A stretch of DNA of 64,000 bases from Niveibacterium sp. SC-1 (lineage in GTDB: Bacteria; Pseudomonadota; Gammaproteobacteria; Burkholderiales; Rhodocyclaceae): NCBI RefSeq assembly GCF_038235435.1, contig NZ_CP151275.1:3224001-3288000 (forward strand). Direction: 5' to 3'. Shown here piece after piece: positions 51,806 to 60,821 of this stretch. The notes beneath the pieces were generated by a model. It was not told where the DNA came from and did not search any database. It was given only the letters and a program-made list of their open reading frames with translations. How positions within the stretch are numbered: position 1 is the stretch's first letter; every line of letters begins with the position of its first letter. Both the position numbers and the translations under genes were made by a program.

Positions 51806-53191
51806 TCAGATCACCTTCGAATACTTGGCCGCCGTGCGGTGCTCATGCAGGTGACGGTCGAAGACCATGGCGATCACGCGAACCAGCAGGCGCCCGCGCT
51901 CCGTGACGCGGATCTCGTCGGGCGTGAGCTCGCACAGACCGGCGGCGGCCATGCCGCGCAACGCCTCCAGCTCGCGCGCGAAATACTCGCTGAAAGCGAG
52001 GCCCCATTGCTTCTCGACTTCAGTCAGCGAGAGCGCGAAATCGCACATCAGTGCCTGGATCACCGCGTAGCGCAGCCGGTCGTCCTGGTCCATCTGGTAG
52101 CCGCGCACCACCGGCAGCGTGTCGGTATCCAGGGCCGCGTAGTAGGCATCGAGCGTCTTCACGTTCTGCGTGTAGAGCCCGTCGGTCATGCCGATTGCCG
52201 AAACGCCGAAGGCCAGCAGATCGCAGCCCGCGTGGGTCGAATATCCCTGGAAGTTGCGGTGCAGGCGGCCTTCGCGCTGGGCGATGGCCATTTCGTCATC
52301 GGGCCGCGCGAAGTGGTCCATGCCGATGTAGACGTAGCCGGCCCGCTCGAGCCTGTCGATCGACATGCCCAGGATGCGCAGCTTGTCGTCGGCGCTGGGC
52401 AGTTCTTCTTCCTTGATCCGCCGTTGCGGCATGAAGCGCGTCGGCAGGTGCGCGTAGTTGTAAAGCGCGATGCGGTCGGGCGCGATATCGAGGACGGCGT
52501 CCAGCGTGGCCGACACACTGTCCAGAGTCTGCAAGGGCAGGCCATAGATCAGGTCCATGCTCACCGAACGAAACCCATGATCACGGGCCGCCTGGATGAC
52601 TGCCGCGGTCTCCTCCACCGACTGGATCCGGTTCACCGCTTTTTGCACTCGCGAATCGAAGTCCTGCACGCCGACGCTCATCCGGTTGAGCCCCAGCTCT
52701 GCCAGCAAGGCAATCGTCTCCCGCGAGACACGTCGCGGGTCCAGCTCCACCGAATATTCGCCGTCCTCAACGAGCGTGAAATGCTCGTTGATCTGCGCAA
52801 AGAGGCGACGTATCTGCGCATCGGTCAGGAAGGTCGGCGTGCCACCTCCCAGATGCAATTGCGCGACCGAGCGCGAGCCCGAAAGTTCGCGCGCGACGAG
52901 TGCCATTTCACGGGACAGGTAGTCGAGATAGCGATCTGCGCGACCCCGATCCTTGGTAATCACCTTGTTGCAAGCGCAGTAGTAGCAGACCGTGTCACAG
53001 AAAGGGATGTGGAAGTACAATGAAATCGGCCGTTCATTGCTCTTTCGGTCGCGTAGCGCGCGTACCAGCCCGGCAGGCTCGAAGGCTTCGTGAAACCTGT
53101 CCGCCGTGGGATACGAGGTGTATCGCGGACCGGAAACGTCGAAGCGTTTGATGAGTTCTGGATCAAAAATGCGGCTTTGAGAATCGTTCAT
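51806..53191 (-). CDS. hemN: Oxygen-independent coproporphyrinogen III oxidase HemN
   Basis: This 461-residue radical-SAM enzyme converts coproporphyrinogen III to protoporphyrinogen IX in anaerobic haem synthesis. The cluster motif is FCDTVCYYCACNK (C65, C69, C72), followed by HLGGGTPTFLTDAQI and SVELDPRRVSRETI. The start at 53191 gives the standard N-terminus (FDPELIKRFDVSGPRYTSYPTADRF); upstream frame is unrelated. An FNR-type site at 53250-53263 lies 60 bases upstream, shared with the divergent fnr gene. Confidence 0.96.
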   Translation of the reverse strand: MNDSQSRIFDPELIKRFDVSGPRYTSYPTADRFHEAFEPAGLVRALRDRKSNERPISLYFHIPFCDTVCYYCACNKVITKDRGRADRYLDYLSREMALVARELSGSRSVAQLHLGGGTPTFLTDAQIRRLFAQINEHFTLVEDGEYSVELDPRRVSRETIALLAELGLNRMSVGVQDFDSRVQKAVNRIQSVEETAAVIQAARDHGFRSVSMDLIYGLPLQTLDSVSATLDAVLDIAPDRIALYNYAHLPTRFMPQRRIKEEELPSADDKLRILGMSIDRLERAGYVYIGMDHFARPDDEMAIAQREGRLHRNFQGYSTHAGCDLLAFGVSAIGMTDGLYTQNVKTLDAYYAALDTDTLPVVRGYQMDQDDRLRYAVIQALMCDFALSLTEVEKQWGLAFSEYFARELEALRGMAAAGLCELTPDEIRVTERGRLLVRVIAMVFDRHLHEHRTAAKYSKVI

Positions 53192-53249: not shown

Positions 53250-53263
53250 TTGATGTAGGTCAA
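53250..53263. promoter_or_regulatory. FNR box between hemN and fnr
   Basis: TTGAT-GTAG-GTCAA differs from the TTGAT-N4-ATCAA consensus at one base. For hemN, only a weak -10 (TGAAAA, 53223-53228) stands at class II distance. For fnr, the site is too close to the start for class II activation and would fit autorepression. Confidence 0.7.
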
Positions 53264-53285
53264 TTGTTGTCTTTTGGAGCAAGCC

Positions 53286-54029
53286 TTGGAAAACCCCGCG
53301 ACAGTCATCCCCCTCACTGCAGCGAACCTCGCCACCGCCTGTGCGCAGTGCAACCTGAAGGAACTGTGCCTGCCTGTTGGTCTGGACGTCGACGCACTCG
53401 AACGGATGGACGGCCTGATCACCGCGCGCAAGAGGATCAAACGTTCCCAGCACCTGTACCGCGCGGGCGAACCTTTCGACGCAATCTACGCAATACGTAC
53501 CGGCTTCTTCAAGACCGACATCCTCACCGAGGATGGCCGTGATCAGGTCACCGGGTTCCAGATGGCTGGCGAAATCATCGGCCTGGACGGCATCTCCACT
53601 GATCGCCATGTCTGCAACGCGGTCGCGCTGGAGGACAGCGAAGTCTGCATGATTTCCTTCGACCGGCTCGAAGAACTCTCGCGCAAGGTCGAGTCGCTGC
53701 AACGCCAGTTCCACAAGTTCATGAGCCGCGAGATCGTGCGTGAGCAAGGCATCATGATGCTCCTCGGCTCGATGCGCGCCGAGGAAAGACTCGCGGCCTT
53801 CCTGCTCAACCTCTCGCAGCGCATGCGCGCGCGCGGCTATTCGGCTTCCGAGTTCAACCTGCGCATGACGCGCGAAGAGATCGGCTCCTATCTCGGCCTC
53901 AAGCTCGAAACGGTCAGCCGCGCCTTCTCGCGCTTCCAGGACGAAGGCTTCATCCTCGTCCATCAGAAACACATCCGCATTGTCGATGCCGAGGGCCTGC
54001 GCCGTCTCATCGGTCGCGCACCAATCTGA
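53286..54029 (+). CDS. fnr: FNR-family oxygen-sensing transcription factor
   Basis: This 247-residue Crp/Fnr regulator senses oxygen through a [4Fe-4S] cluster. The ligands are visible: CAQCNLKELC (C19, C22, C28) and C110. The cyclic-nucleotide-like fold, dimer helix and helix-turn-helix (TREEIGSYLGLKLETVSRAFSRFQDEG) are intact; the E..SR recognition residues match TTGAT half-sites. I chose the TTG at 53286 because GGAG lies six bases upstream; the frame also has a TTG four codons earlier that overlaps this ribosome site. Sites for it are seen before hemN, uspA, ccoN and the candidate small RNA. Confidence 0.95.
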   Translation: MENPATVIPLTAANLATACAQCNLKELCLPVGLDVDALERMDGLITARKRIKRSQHLYRAGEPFDAIYAIRTGFFKTDILTEDGRDQVTGFQMAGEIIGLDGISTDRHVCNAVALEDSEVCMISFDRLEELSRKVESLQRQFHKFMSREIVREQGIMMLLGSMRAEERLAAFLLNLSQRMRARGYSASEFNLRMTREEIGSYLGLKLETVSRAFSRFQDEGFILVHQKHIRIVDAEGLRRLIGRAPI

Positions 54030-58832: not shown

Positions 58833-60254
58833 TCAGTGGGCAGCGGCCGGCAGGATCACCGGTGCGTTGTAGGCCTTGCCCGCGGCGATGGTGCGCACCA
58901 TGTTGTAGGCCATGATGAACATGCCGGAGAGGAAGAGCACGCCGCCGAGCAGGCGGATCTGCCAGAAGGGATAGCTCGCCTTCACGCTCTCTGCAAAGGC
59001 GTAGGTCAGGGTGCCGTCCGGGTTCGTGGCACGCCACATCAGCCCCTGCATCACACCGGCGATCCACATCGAGGCGATGTAGAGCACGACGCCGATCGTG
59101 GCGATCCAGAAGTGCATGGTGATGAGCTTGATCGAGTACATCTCGGCGCGGCCCCAGAGGCGCGGGATCAGGTAGTAGATCGAGCCGATGGAGATCATCG
59201 CCACCCAGCCCAGCGCACCGGCATGCACATGGCCAATGGTCCAGTCCGTGTAGTGCGAGAGCGCGTTGACCGTCTTGATGGACATCATCGGGCCTTCGAA
59301 GGTCGACATGCCGTAGAAGGACAGCGAGGTGATCAGGAACTTGAGGATGGGGTCGTCACGCAGTTTGTGCCAGGCACCCGAGAGGGTCATGATCCCGTTG
59401 ATCATGCCGCCCCAGGACGGCGCCAGCAGGATCAGCGAGAACACCATGCCGAGCGACTGGGTCCAGTCAGGCAAGGCCGTGTAGTGCAGGTGGTGCGGGC
59501 CCGCCCACATGTAGGTGAAGATCAGCGCCCAGAAGTGCACCACCGAGAGGCGGTACGAATAGACCGGGCGGCCGGCCTGCTTGGGCACAAAGTAATACAT
59601 CATCCCCAGGAAGCCTGCGGTGAGGAAGAAGCCCACCGCATTGTGGCCGTACCACCACTGCACCATCGCATCCTGCACGCCGGCGTAGGCGGAGTAGGAC
59701 TTCCAGAAGGTGACCGGAATCTCGGCACTATTGACGATGTGCAGCAGGGCCACGGCCAGGATGAAGCCGCCGTAGAACCAGTTCGCCACGTAGATGTGCG
59801 AGGTCTTGCGCTTGGCGATGGTGCCGAAGAAGACCACCGCGTAGCTCACCCACACCACCGCGATCAGGATGTCGATCGGCCATTCGAGCTCCGCGTACTC
59901 TTTGCCCGAGGTGTAGCCCAGCGGCAGCGTGATCGCAGCGAGCACGATGACCAGTTGCCAGCCCCAGAACGTGAAGCTCGCGAGCCAAGGCGCAAACAGC
60001 CCCGTGTGGCTCGTCCGTTGCACCACGTAGTAAGAGGTGGCGAACAAGGCGCAGCCGCCAAAGGCAAAAATCACCGCATTCGTATGCAGCGGTCGCAGCC
60101 GACCAAAGTGGAACCACTCCGCAAAGTTCAGCTCCGGCCATACCAGCTGGGCGGCCACGATGACCCCCACCAGCATGCCTACGATTCCCCACACTACGGT
60201 CATGACGGCGAACTGCCGTACGACTCCGTAGTCGTAAGTCGCTTGCGATTGCAT
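58833..60254 (-). CDS. ccoN: cbb3 oxidase catalytic subunit CcoN
   Basis: CcoN (473 residues) is the haem-copper catalytic subunit with twelve membrane helices. Characteristic blocks include [111 protein letters not shown] and [24 protein letters not shown], which hold the metal-ligand histidines and active-site Tyr. A perfect FNR box with correctly spaced -10 lies upstream, so expression should rise at low oxygen. Confidence 0.98.
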
Positions 60255-60336: not shown

Positions 60337-60377
60337 ATCATAGGAGGAGTTCCCGCAATTCTCTTGATCGATATCAA
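60337..60377 (-). promoter_or_regulatory. FNR-dependent class II promoter of ccoNOQP
   Basis: TTGAT-CGAT-ATCAA (60364-60377) is a perfect FNR box. On the minus strand TATGAT (60337-60342) is a good -10, putting the site centre about 40.5 bases upstream of the predicted start near 60330. The leader to ccoN would be about 75 bases. Confidence 0.88.
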
Positions 60378-60460: not shown

Positions 60461-60489
60461 AAAAAAAGGGTGCGTCGCTAGACGCACCC
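60461..60489 (-). terminator. Strong intrinsic terminator between ccoS and ccoN
   Basis: On the minus strand GGGTGCGTC-TAGC-GACGCACCC is a perfect 9-bp stem with a 4-base loop followed by seven Ts. It ends either the candidate small RNA or the ccoIS transcript. Confidence 0.92.
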
Positions 60490-60570
60490 CCAACCCCAAC
60501 AGAGAGACGAAACCAAGCGTTAGCCGCTTGCACGGAGGAGATCGCTTGCGCGATCAGACCCGCTCGGTTG
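60461..60570 (-). ncRNA. Candidate FNR-activated small RNA between ccoS and ccoN
   Basis: A transcript starting near 60570 and ending in the T-run at 60461 would be about 110 bases. From its 5' end it has a 6-bp hairpin GATCGC-GCAA-GCGATC (60540-60555) with a GNRA loop, then a single-stranded CTCCTCC (60534-60540) complementary to Shine-Dalgarno sequences. A second 6-bp hairpin CAAGCG-GCTAA-CGCTTG (60514-60530), a pyrimidine- then G-rich stretch, and a 9-bp terminator follow. No reading frame is credible. The layout resembles FNR-induced small RNAs such as FnrS and AniS in concept, not in sequence. It could instead be the 3' end of the ccoIS mRNA. Confidence 0.6.
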
Positions 60571-60576
60571 AGATTG

Positions 60577-60618
60577 AGTATCCGCCCGCCAAGCCTTGCC
60601 CGCATTGACTCACGTCAA
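60577..60618 (-). promoter_or_regulatory. FNR-type class II promoter of the candidate small RNA
   Basis: TTGAC-TCAC-GTCAA (60605-60618) keeps the TTGA-N6-TCAA core and overlaps the ccoS stop. On the minus strand GATACT (60577-60582) is a fair -10, giving a site centre about 41.5 bases before a start near 60570. Confidence 0.6.
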
Positions 60619-60821
60619 TCGCGGCGCCCTTCCCCGCCGGGGCCATTTCCGGGAGGCGACTCCGCAGCTTCTTCGGGTGCGCGGTCGTCGTCCATCAAGA
60701 CCCGGTAGGCCGGACCCTCAAGGTCGTCGAACTGGCCGCTGCGCACGAACCACCACAAGGCGATCCCGATCAGGAAGACCAGCACCACCGAGAGTGGAAT
60801 CAGCAGATAGAGGATTTCCAT
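60615..60821 (-). CDS. ccoS: cbb3 oxidase maturation protein CcoS
   Basis: CcoS (68 residues) is a small membrane protein needed for cofactor insertion in cbb3 oxidase. One helix (ILYLLIPLSVVLVFLIGIALWWFV, about 3-26) is followed by the family signature RSGQFDDLEGPAYRVLMDDD. The tail is rich in Pro, Gly and Glu. It begins directly after the ccoI stop. Confidence 0.95.
   Translation of the reverse strand: MEILYLLIPLSVVLVFLIGIALWWFVRSGQFDDLEGPAYRVLMDDDRAPEEAAESPPGNGPGGEGRRD

Follow-up and report, generated by a model that had tools for sequence, protein, structure and literature searches.

The locus lies in the cbb3 oxidase gene cluster of the window, i.e. the whole stretch of 64,000 nt that was analysed. 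The gap between ccoS (low end at 60615) and ccoN (high end at 60254) comprises 360 bases, and the following features were found in it and around it:

58833-60254, minus strand: ccoN, cbb3 oxidase subunit I, downstream of the small RNA (TIGR00780, 790 bits)
60364-60377, minus strand: second FNR site (TTGATATCGATCAA), taken to belong to the ccoN promoter
60461-60489, minus strand: intrinsic terminator GGGUGCGUC-UAGC-GACGCACCC-UUUUUUU with a 9-bp stem
60461-60569, minus strand: predicted small RNA of about 109 nt, its start placed from the -10 hexamer
60488-60508, minus strand: pairing element GUCUCUCUGUUGGGGUUGGGG, the last 18 bases of which are nearly invariant
60509-60569, minus strand: variable 5′ part, including a GCAA hairpin and CUCCUCC
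60577-60582, minus strand: -10 hexamer GATACT, located 22 nt downstream of the FNR site
60605-60618, minus strand: FNR-type site TTGAC-GTGA-GTCAA, centred near -41.5 in the promoter of the small RNA
60615-60821, minus strand: ccoS, upstream of the small RNA (TIGR00847, over the cut-off)
53274-54029, plus strand: fnr, located about 6.4 kb away and presumed to encode the activator (NF008365, over the cut-off)

The original prediction held that this gap contains more than the ccoN promoter, namely a separate FNR-type promoter with the site TTGAC-TCAC-GTCAA and a short transcript with its own terminator. The site is present; the letters given for it were those of the plus strand (TTGACTCACGTCAA), and the minus strand reads TTGACGTGAGTCAA. 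If transcription starts at about 60570, as the -10 hexamer suggests, the centre of the site is near -41.5, i.e. the FNR site stands at class II distance from the -10 as in FNR-activated small RNAs. The pattern TTGAYN4RTCAA occurs three times in the window, compared to 0.07 expected occurrences. The second of these sites is followed by TATGAT at 60342-60337, which we read as its -10, and it suits ccoN; the predicted transcript ends at 60461, ahead of this site.

The terminator of the window consists of the 9-bp stem, a TAGC loop, and a run of seven T, i.e. seven U in the tail of the RNA, a feature relevant to Hfq-dependent small RNAs. Two hairpins named in the original prediction, GAUCGC-GCAA-GCGAUC and CAAGCG-GCUAA-CGCUUG, are present in the letters, and both formed when the 158-nt stretch was folded. 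The minimum-energy fold of the 109-nt transcript kept the first and not the second. The predicted transcript has a folding z of -3.2 compared with 200 shuffles. Within the pairing element, a weak hairpin, UCUC-UGUU-GGGG, is possible. The core of this element, UCUCUGUUGGGGUUGGGG, is found at 60505-60488, on the 3′ side of CUCCUCC. The elements described in the original prediction were confirmed as real; the number of FNR sites, the fold of the transcript, and the recurrence of the spacing between site and -10 in relatives (see below) exceed chance.

We searched 199 genomes of the same family with a 171-nt region by blastn. It matched 147 of them, and the match was nearly always confined to the final 50-65 bases of the region or to a part of these; the other 52 had no blastn match for the region. 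Among the 30 best blastn loci, ccoN lay beside the match in all 30 and ccoS in 29 (tblastn). A DNA pattern of 22 fixed core bases was scanned over the genome collection and found in at least 119 stretches, of which 80 loci were taken. The named organisms include Azoarcus, Thauera, Zoogloea, Dechloromonas, Azonexus, Aromatoleum, Uliginosibacterium, and Accumulibacter, and other loci belong to bins labelled e.g. Rhodocyclaceae, Zoogloeaceae, Burkholderiales, Betaproteobacteria, Gammaproteobacteria, or Proteobacteria. These 80 pattern loci had ccoN downstream in 73 cases (three at 0.8 to 2.4 kb) and ccoS upstream in 73. At the seven loci lacking a ccoN match downstream, the stretch ends 80-290 nt further on in four, and other genes follow in three.

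The estimate of core conservation is biased, as the 30 core loci were the best blastn matches and the 80 others were chosen by the core itself; the FNR site and the -10 played no role in the pattern choice of the resulting list of 110 loci. TTGAYN4RTCAA was found upstream in 107 of these 110 distinct related loci; it is absent at L117, L134, and L141, and the sequence of L134 ends 48 nt upstream. In 90 of the 107 loci, the FNR site is followed at an offset of 21 or 22 nt by a -10 with at least four of six matches; each of the other offsets between 8 and 43 accounts for only 0 to 4 loci. Over the 107 loci, the length of the predicted transcript ranges from 63 to 146 nt, with a median of 98. A compact form of about 68 nt was observed at L078, L085, L126, L129, and similar loci, mostly of Dechloromonas/Azonexus; the two that were folded, L085 and L126, consist of a single hairpin at the 5′ end, the element, and the terminator.

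The conserved part consists of UCUCUGUUGGGGUUGGGG and the terminator. Across the 30 best loci, 37 of the 51 columns of the 3′ part are invariant, and two loci are one G shorter; GUC directly precedes UCUCUGUUGGGG in 69 of the 110 loci. The cells of the terminator stem are paired to 98.6% in the 30 loci (alignments with the T run trimmed to seven), and seven of the eight terminator pairs never vary, so that covariation says little here: one pair changed on both sides, which was equalled in 464 of 500 shuffles, while the covariation score was equalled in just 4 of 500.

The 5′ half behaves differently. It hardly aligns across the relatives, shrinks to 18 nt in some of them, and received zero pairs from RNAalifold, so that a consensus fold of the whole transcript was discarded. 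CUCCUCC, which the original prediction regarded as an active anti-Shine-Dalgarno element, occurs in one of the 110 loci, i.e. in the window's own copy alone, and the conserved pairing element lies further 3′. The FNR promoter, the core, and the terminator are kept in the related loci, but the two particular hairpins and CUCCUCC, whose conservation in related ccoS-ccoN gaps the original prediction had called for, find no support there. The original prediction had recognized a real and widely conserved FNR-type small RNA gene and named the wrong part of it as active.

A small RNA that binds proteins (a sponge of the Csr/Rsm type or another), with the 5′ hairpins as binding sites, would agree with the observation that, in 105 loci, the 5′ parts fold better than mononucleotide shuffles (median z -2.7) in spite of their variable sequence. 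Seventeen of the 107 loci share CATGGTT close to the start; no 5′ motif common to all was seen, and together with 5′ parts of only 18 nt and the position of the conserved part in the pairing element this makes such a sponge very improbable. Even less credible is a short protein-coding gene. A 91-aa frame on the minus strand crosses the region, but frames with ATG or GTG starts run through the core in all three reading frames (52, 31, and 50), and 36 of the 107 loci have no ATG- or GTG-start frame through the core at all.

The position between ccoS and ccoN, on the same strand, at most loci could also point to an element acting only in cis, i.e. a terminator of the ccoIS mRNA or a leader or attenuator of ccoNOQP devoid of trans action, and the terminator does make up about half of the conserved part. 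We regard this as unlikely, for several reasons. The RNA has its own FNR promoter at a fixed spacing, and in the window another FNR site, that of ccoN, follows past the terminator. Termination does not require the roughly 18 nearly invariant bases that lie ahead of the stem or at its foot. At L132, L149, and L096, the small RNA, the FNR site, and the -10 are retained after ccoS with no ccoN downstream; the following frame is, judged from its sequence, ndk-like or oxidoreductase-like. Retention at these three loci indicates that the RNA is not simply a ccoN leader. Lastly, pairing was predicted with the starts of TusE-like genes (see below) and not with those of ccoN or ccoS. Self-regulation of these two genes through pairing was rejected, as no signal was obtained with 103 ccoN and 98 ccoS starts: the mean z was +0.40 for ccoN (1 of 103 below -2.5) and -0.16 for ccoS (0 of 98). 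For comparison, the ORF starts of the window, spurious ORFs included, had a mean z of +0.79, with 0 of 75 below -2.5.

To predict targets, part of the complement of the 21-nt element (CCCCAACCCCAACAGAGAGAC) was sought before ATG codons, in 61 genomes and then in 150. Start-region sites with up to nearly the full complement were found at TusE-like DsrC paralogs in G008, G010, G073, and G117. Predicted pairing with the core was strong for 12 of 13 TusE-like DsrC starts, with z values of -2.0 to -8.8 (300 element shuffles) and a value of 0.1 for the 13th; 19 other DsrC-family genes ranged from -3.3 to +1.3. The set comprised 30 of the 66 Pfam DsrC matches plus two pattern hits (L338 and L342). 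A one-sided rank test of the 12 TusE-like genes versus 20 other DsrC-family genes gave p = 5e-6, where “TusE-like” denotes at least 67% identity to the TusE query, a line that was drawn after the scores were known, and L294 is among the 20. L294 (G025) has 66% identity to the TusE query, a TDAEG motif, a genome with a blastn match for the small RNA, and a pairing z of 0.1. When it was moved to the TusE-like group, p was 4e-5, and 7e-4 if only the nine genes that no seed pattern had picked were used. Among the 12, pairing was energetically weakest for G017 (-21.0 kcal/mol); blastn matched the small RNA in the genomes of all the others but not in this one.

In the TusE-like set, the element is thus complementary to orthologous starts beyond chance in 12 of 13 cases. 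A DsrC-family gene is present in just 17 of 61 family genomes, and the TusE-like pairing is limited to genomes with that gene; the genome of the window (G000) is not one of them. With the RNA also kept at three loci that have no ccoN downstream, the trans-acting role suggested originally appears likely.

We consider it probable that the locus encodes an FNR-activated, trans-acting, base-pairing repressor RNA that works like FnrS or AniS. The sequence evidence for a small RNA gene is strong, and that for base pairing is good in part of the family; repression as the direction of regulation, and the involvement of a chaperone, are proposed only by analogy with FnrS. Under low oxygen, FNR would bind at -41.5 and induce a transcript of about 109 nt, which would end at its own terminator, ahead of the ccoN promoter. 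Then UCUCUGUUGGGGUUGGGG would pair with sequences of the type CCCCAAC-AGAGAG that overlap or precede Shine-Dalgarno sequences, whereby translation would be blocked, probably with the assistance of Hfq. The TusE-like DsrC paralog would be the best-conserved target in the relatives, and sodC, 4-hydroxyphenylpyruvate dioxygenase (HPPD), and sucA would be lineage-specific ones. Our confidence is slightly lowered because L294 fails to pair and because the fully kept element has 18 and not 21 bases. An FNR-activated RNA could instead mainly activate or stabilize its targets by base pairing, like SicX of Pseudomonas, which is reported to be Anr-controlled and to raise ubiUVT expression after transcription (PMC10247376). 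This seems very improbable for the window RNA, since the sites predicted for it coincide in part with Shine-Dalgarno sequences or lie directly before them.

Further start-region sites for the RNA were predicted at sodC in G073 and G121, at HPPD in three genomes belonging to the same genus as the window, at sucA in G132, and at an A-type Fe-S assembly protein gene in G048. No motility target was noticed among the hits. G010, of the genus with the two strong sodC sites, has no strong sodC site itself. As general targets, sodC and HPPD were rejected and kept as lineage-specific only, since the whole ortholog sets are near null: the median z was -0.39 for sodC (n = 29) and -0.81 for HPPD (n = 21), with four values below -2.5 in each. 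These sets were drawn from 30 of the 50 listed sodC matches and from 24 for HPPD, and one of the 30 and three of the 24 were dropped, having no usable start or stretch. The repression of aerobic genes proposed originally is therefore upheld in part: the sodC, HPPD, and sucA targets predicted in relatives agree with it, but sodC and HPPD are each found mainly in one genus, and sucA in one genome. L328 (G132) and its ortholog L242 (G041) encode 151-aa proteins with MSxLIxxFSxDGVVTVNRxLLRP, and their starts carry part of the seed complement; a Pfam scan found no domain in the L328 protein.

The seed pattern before ATG is not in excess in the 150 genomes, with 45 matches (14 at the small RNA gene itself) versus 70 for a reordered pattern. 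Its sites do, however, occupy start-like positions more often. Counting distinct sites outside the small RNA gene, 11 of 29 seed sites are at start-like positions, compared to 5 of 66 for the reordered pattern (p = 6e-4), a test that includes related genomes. The 11 are not independent, as HPPD of a single genus accounts for three of them and TusE of a single genus for two. One site that recurred, AACAGAGAGCAGACCGCCGATG with close variants, was set aside as a target, as it looks like RNase P RNA.

In the window's own genome, the seed pattern showed no clear excess (seven matches versus five for the backward control), and the 17-nt complement with up to three mismatches was found three times, once at the small RNA gene itself, versus six times for the backward control. 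DsrC-family genes and HPPD were not found in this genome. Its best candidate is L249, a tssH-like start with CCCCAACGACCAGAACAGAGAGACC near 2932511 (-32.5 kcal/mol, z -4.2, 0 of 300 shuffles), picked from pattern hits that have no overall excess; the gene matched TIGR03345 with 338 bits on the 300 residues scanned, which is below the full-length cut-off. The tssH-like start is the sole target candidate in the window's own genome, and a weak one.

Small RNAs under FNR control have been described in a few model bacteria, and Rfam holds an FnrS family. This family was not listed by Rfam for the window or for the relatives' loci scanned. FnrS of Escherichia coli is reported to be FNR-activated with an FNR site at -41.5, i.e. 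the same class II geometry as in the window (PMC3032703). Two other sources state that it represses mRNAs for functions dispensable without oxygen, with sodB among the named targets (PMC8139620, PMC10993149). The window RNA differs in its location and in its pairing element, being set apart by description, and in its predicted targets, although a superoxide dismutase gene (sodC) is a strong predicted target in one genus here. AniS and the anaerobically induced fnrS of Neisseria are the same RNA. It is betaproteobacterial, like the window RNA, and the two have in common a class II FNR site, a 5′ stem-loop, an unstructured stretch, and a terminator (PMC3032703). The whole-length Rfam alignment of AniS (RF02274) with the window scored 22.6 bits against a gathering threshold of 50, and for 20 of the 30 best loci Rfam did not list this family with E up to 1.

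SorY of Rhodobacter has a promoter of another type. Its family (RF02651) aligned weakly, with 19.6 bits in the window and up to 32.4 in relatives against a gathering threshold of 111, and the alignment spans the hairpin, CUGUUGG, and the terminator. The weak SorY-like match sits at the small RNA each time (L126, 6152-6225; L008, L016, L024, L029, L112, and L124). S17 of Bordetella pertussis and its betaproteobacterial homologs are likened to the window RNA by description alone. S17 is reported to be a short RNA in which 27 nt are fully conserved among Betaproteobacteria, Aromatoleum included, and which pairs near ribosome-binding sites (PMC11722255). In contrast to the window RNA, it adjoins coq7, is produced by processing, and requires BvgA~P, and the text does not contain the word “fnr” (PMC11722255). 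RF02278 (toxic small RNAs, related to S17) was not listed for the window at E up to 10, nor at E up to 1 in the four of the 80 named loci that were scanned. The HRC-8-4 motif of Rhodobacterales, which is alphaproteobacterial and has been likened to riboswitches, is set apart by description; it is usually located between ccoP and ccoG, whereas the window RNA follows ccoS and those of relatives mostly precede ccoN. SicX and PaiI of Pseudomonas and PcrZ of Rhodobacter, compared by description, have loci and modes of action unlike those of the window RNA. They are reported to be, too, under low-oxygen control via Anr/FNR-type regulators, PaiI and PcrZ perhaps indirectly. The window RNA reaches the threshold of no Rfam family, and no account of it was met in the openly licensed literature searched.

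To estimate the spread beyond the family, model R1 was run over 349 genomes of the order. It matched 162 with E up to 0.1, many of the low matches comprising the terminator half alone; the 167 genomes that had no match are excluded from these data, and therefore no presence rate was derived. Among the matches listed, strong ones (at least 55 bits) came from 11 family genomes and two genomes of other families (G369 and G388), the sequence around the latter reading as ccoS-like or ccoN-like. The next match, at 36.8 bits, was read as a terminator after an unrelated gene and rejected. In 274 genomes of the class, R1 found nothing above 29.2 bits except in the window's own genome.

A broader proposal is more tentative, and we consider it possible at best. 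The RNA may be a family-wide anaerobic repressor of the Azoarcus-Thauera-Zoogloea-Dechloromonas group, encoded at the cbb3 locus with an almost invariant 18-nt element and with targets that turn over, the TusE-like one being the most stable where present; FNR would thereby act post-transcriptionally on sulfur transfer, be it for tRNA thiolation or for sulfur oxidation. The group includes denitrifiers, aromatic degraders, and phosphorus accumulators. If the proposal is true, an environmentally important group has its own post-transcriptional arm of the oxygen response, with a fixed place and testable targets, and, with a seed that hardly varies and targets that shift, the turnover of targets in a small RNA regulon can be tested directly.

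The third FNR site of the window, at 53250-53263, lies between the divergent genes hemN (51806-53191, minus strand) and fnr (53274-54029, plus strand), where it is likely to serve fnr autoregulation as well as the control of hemN.
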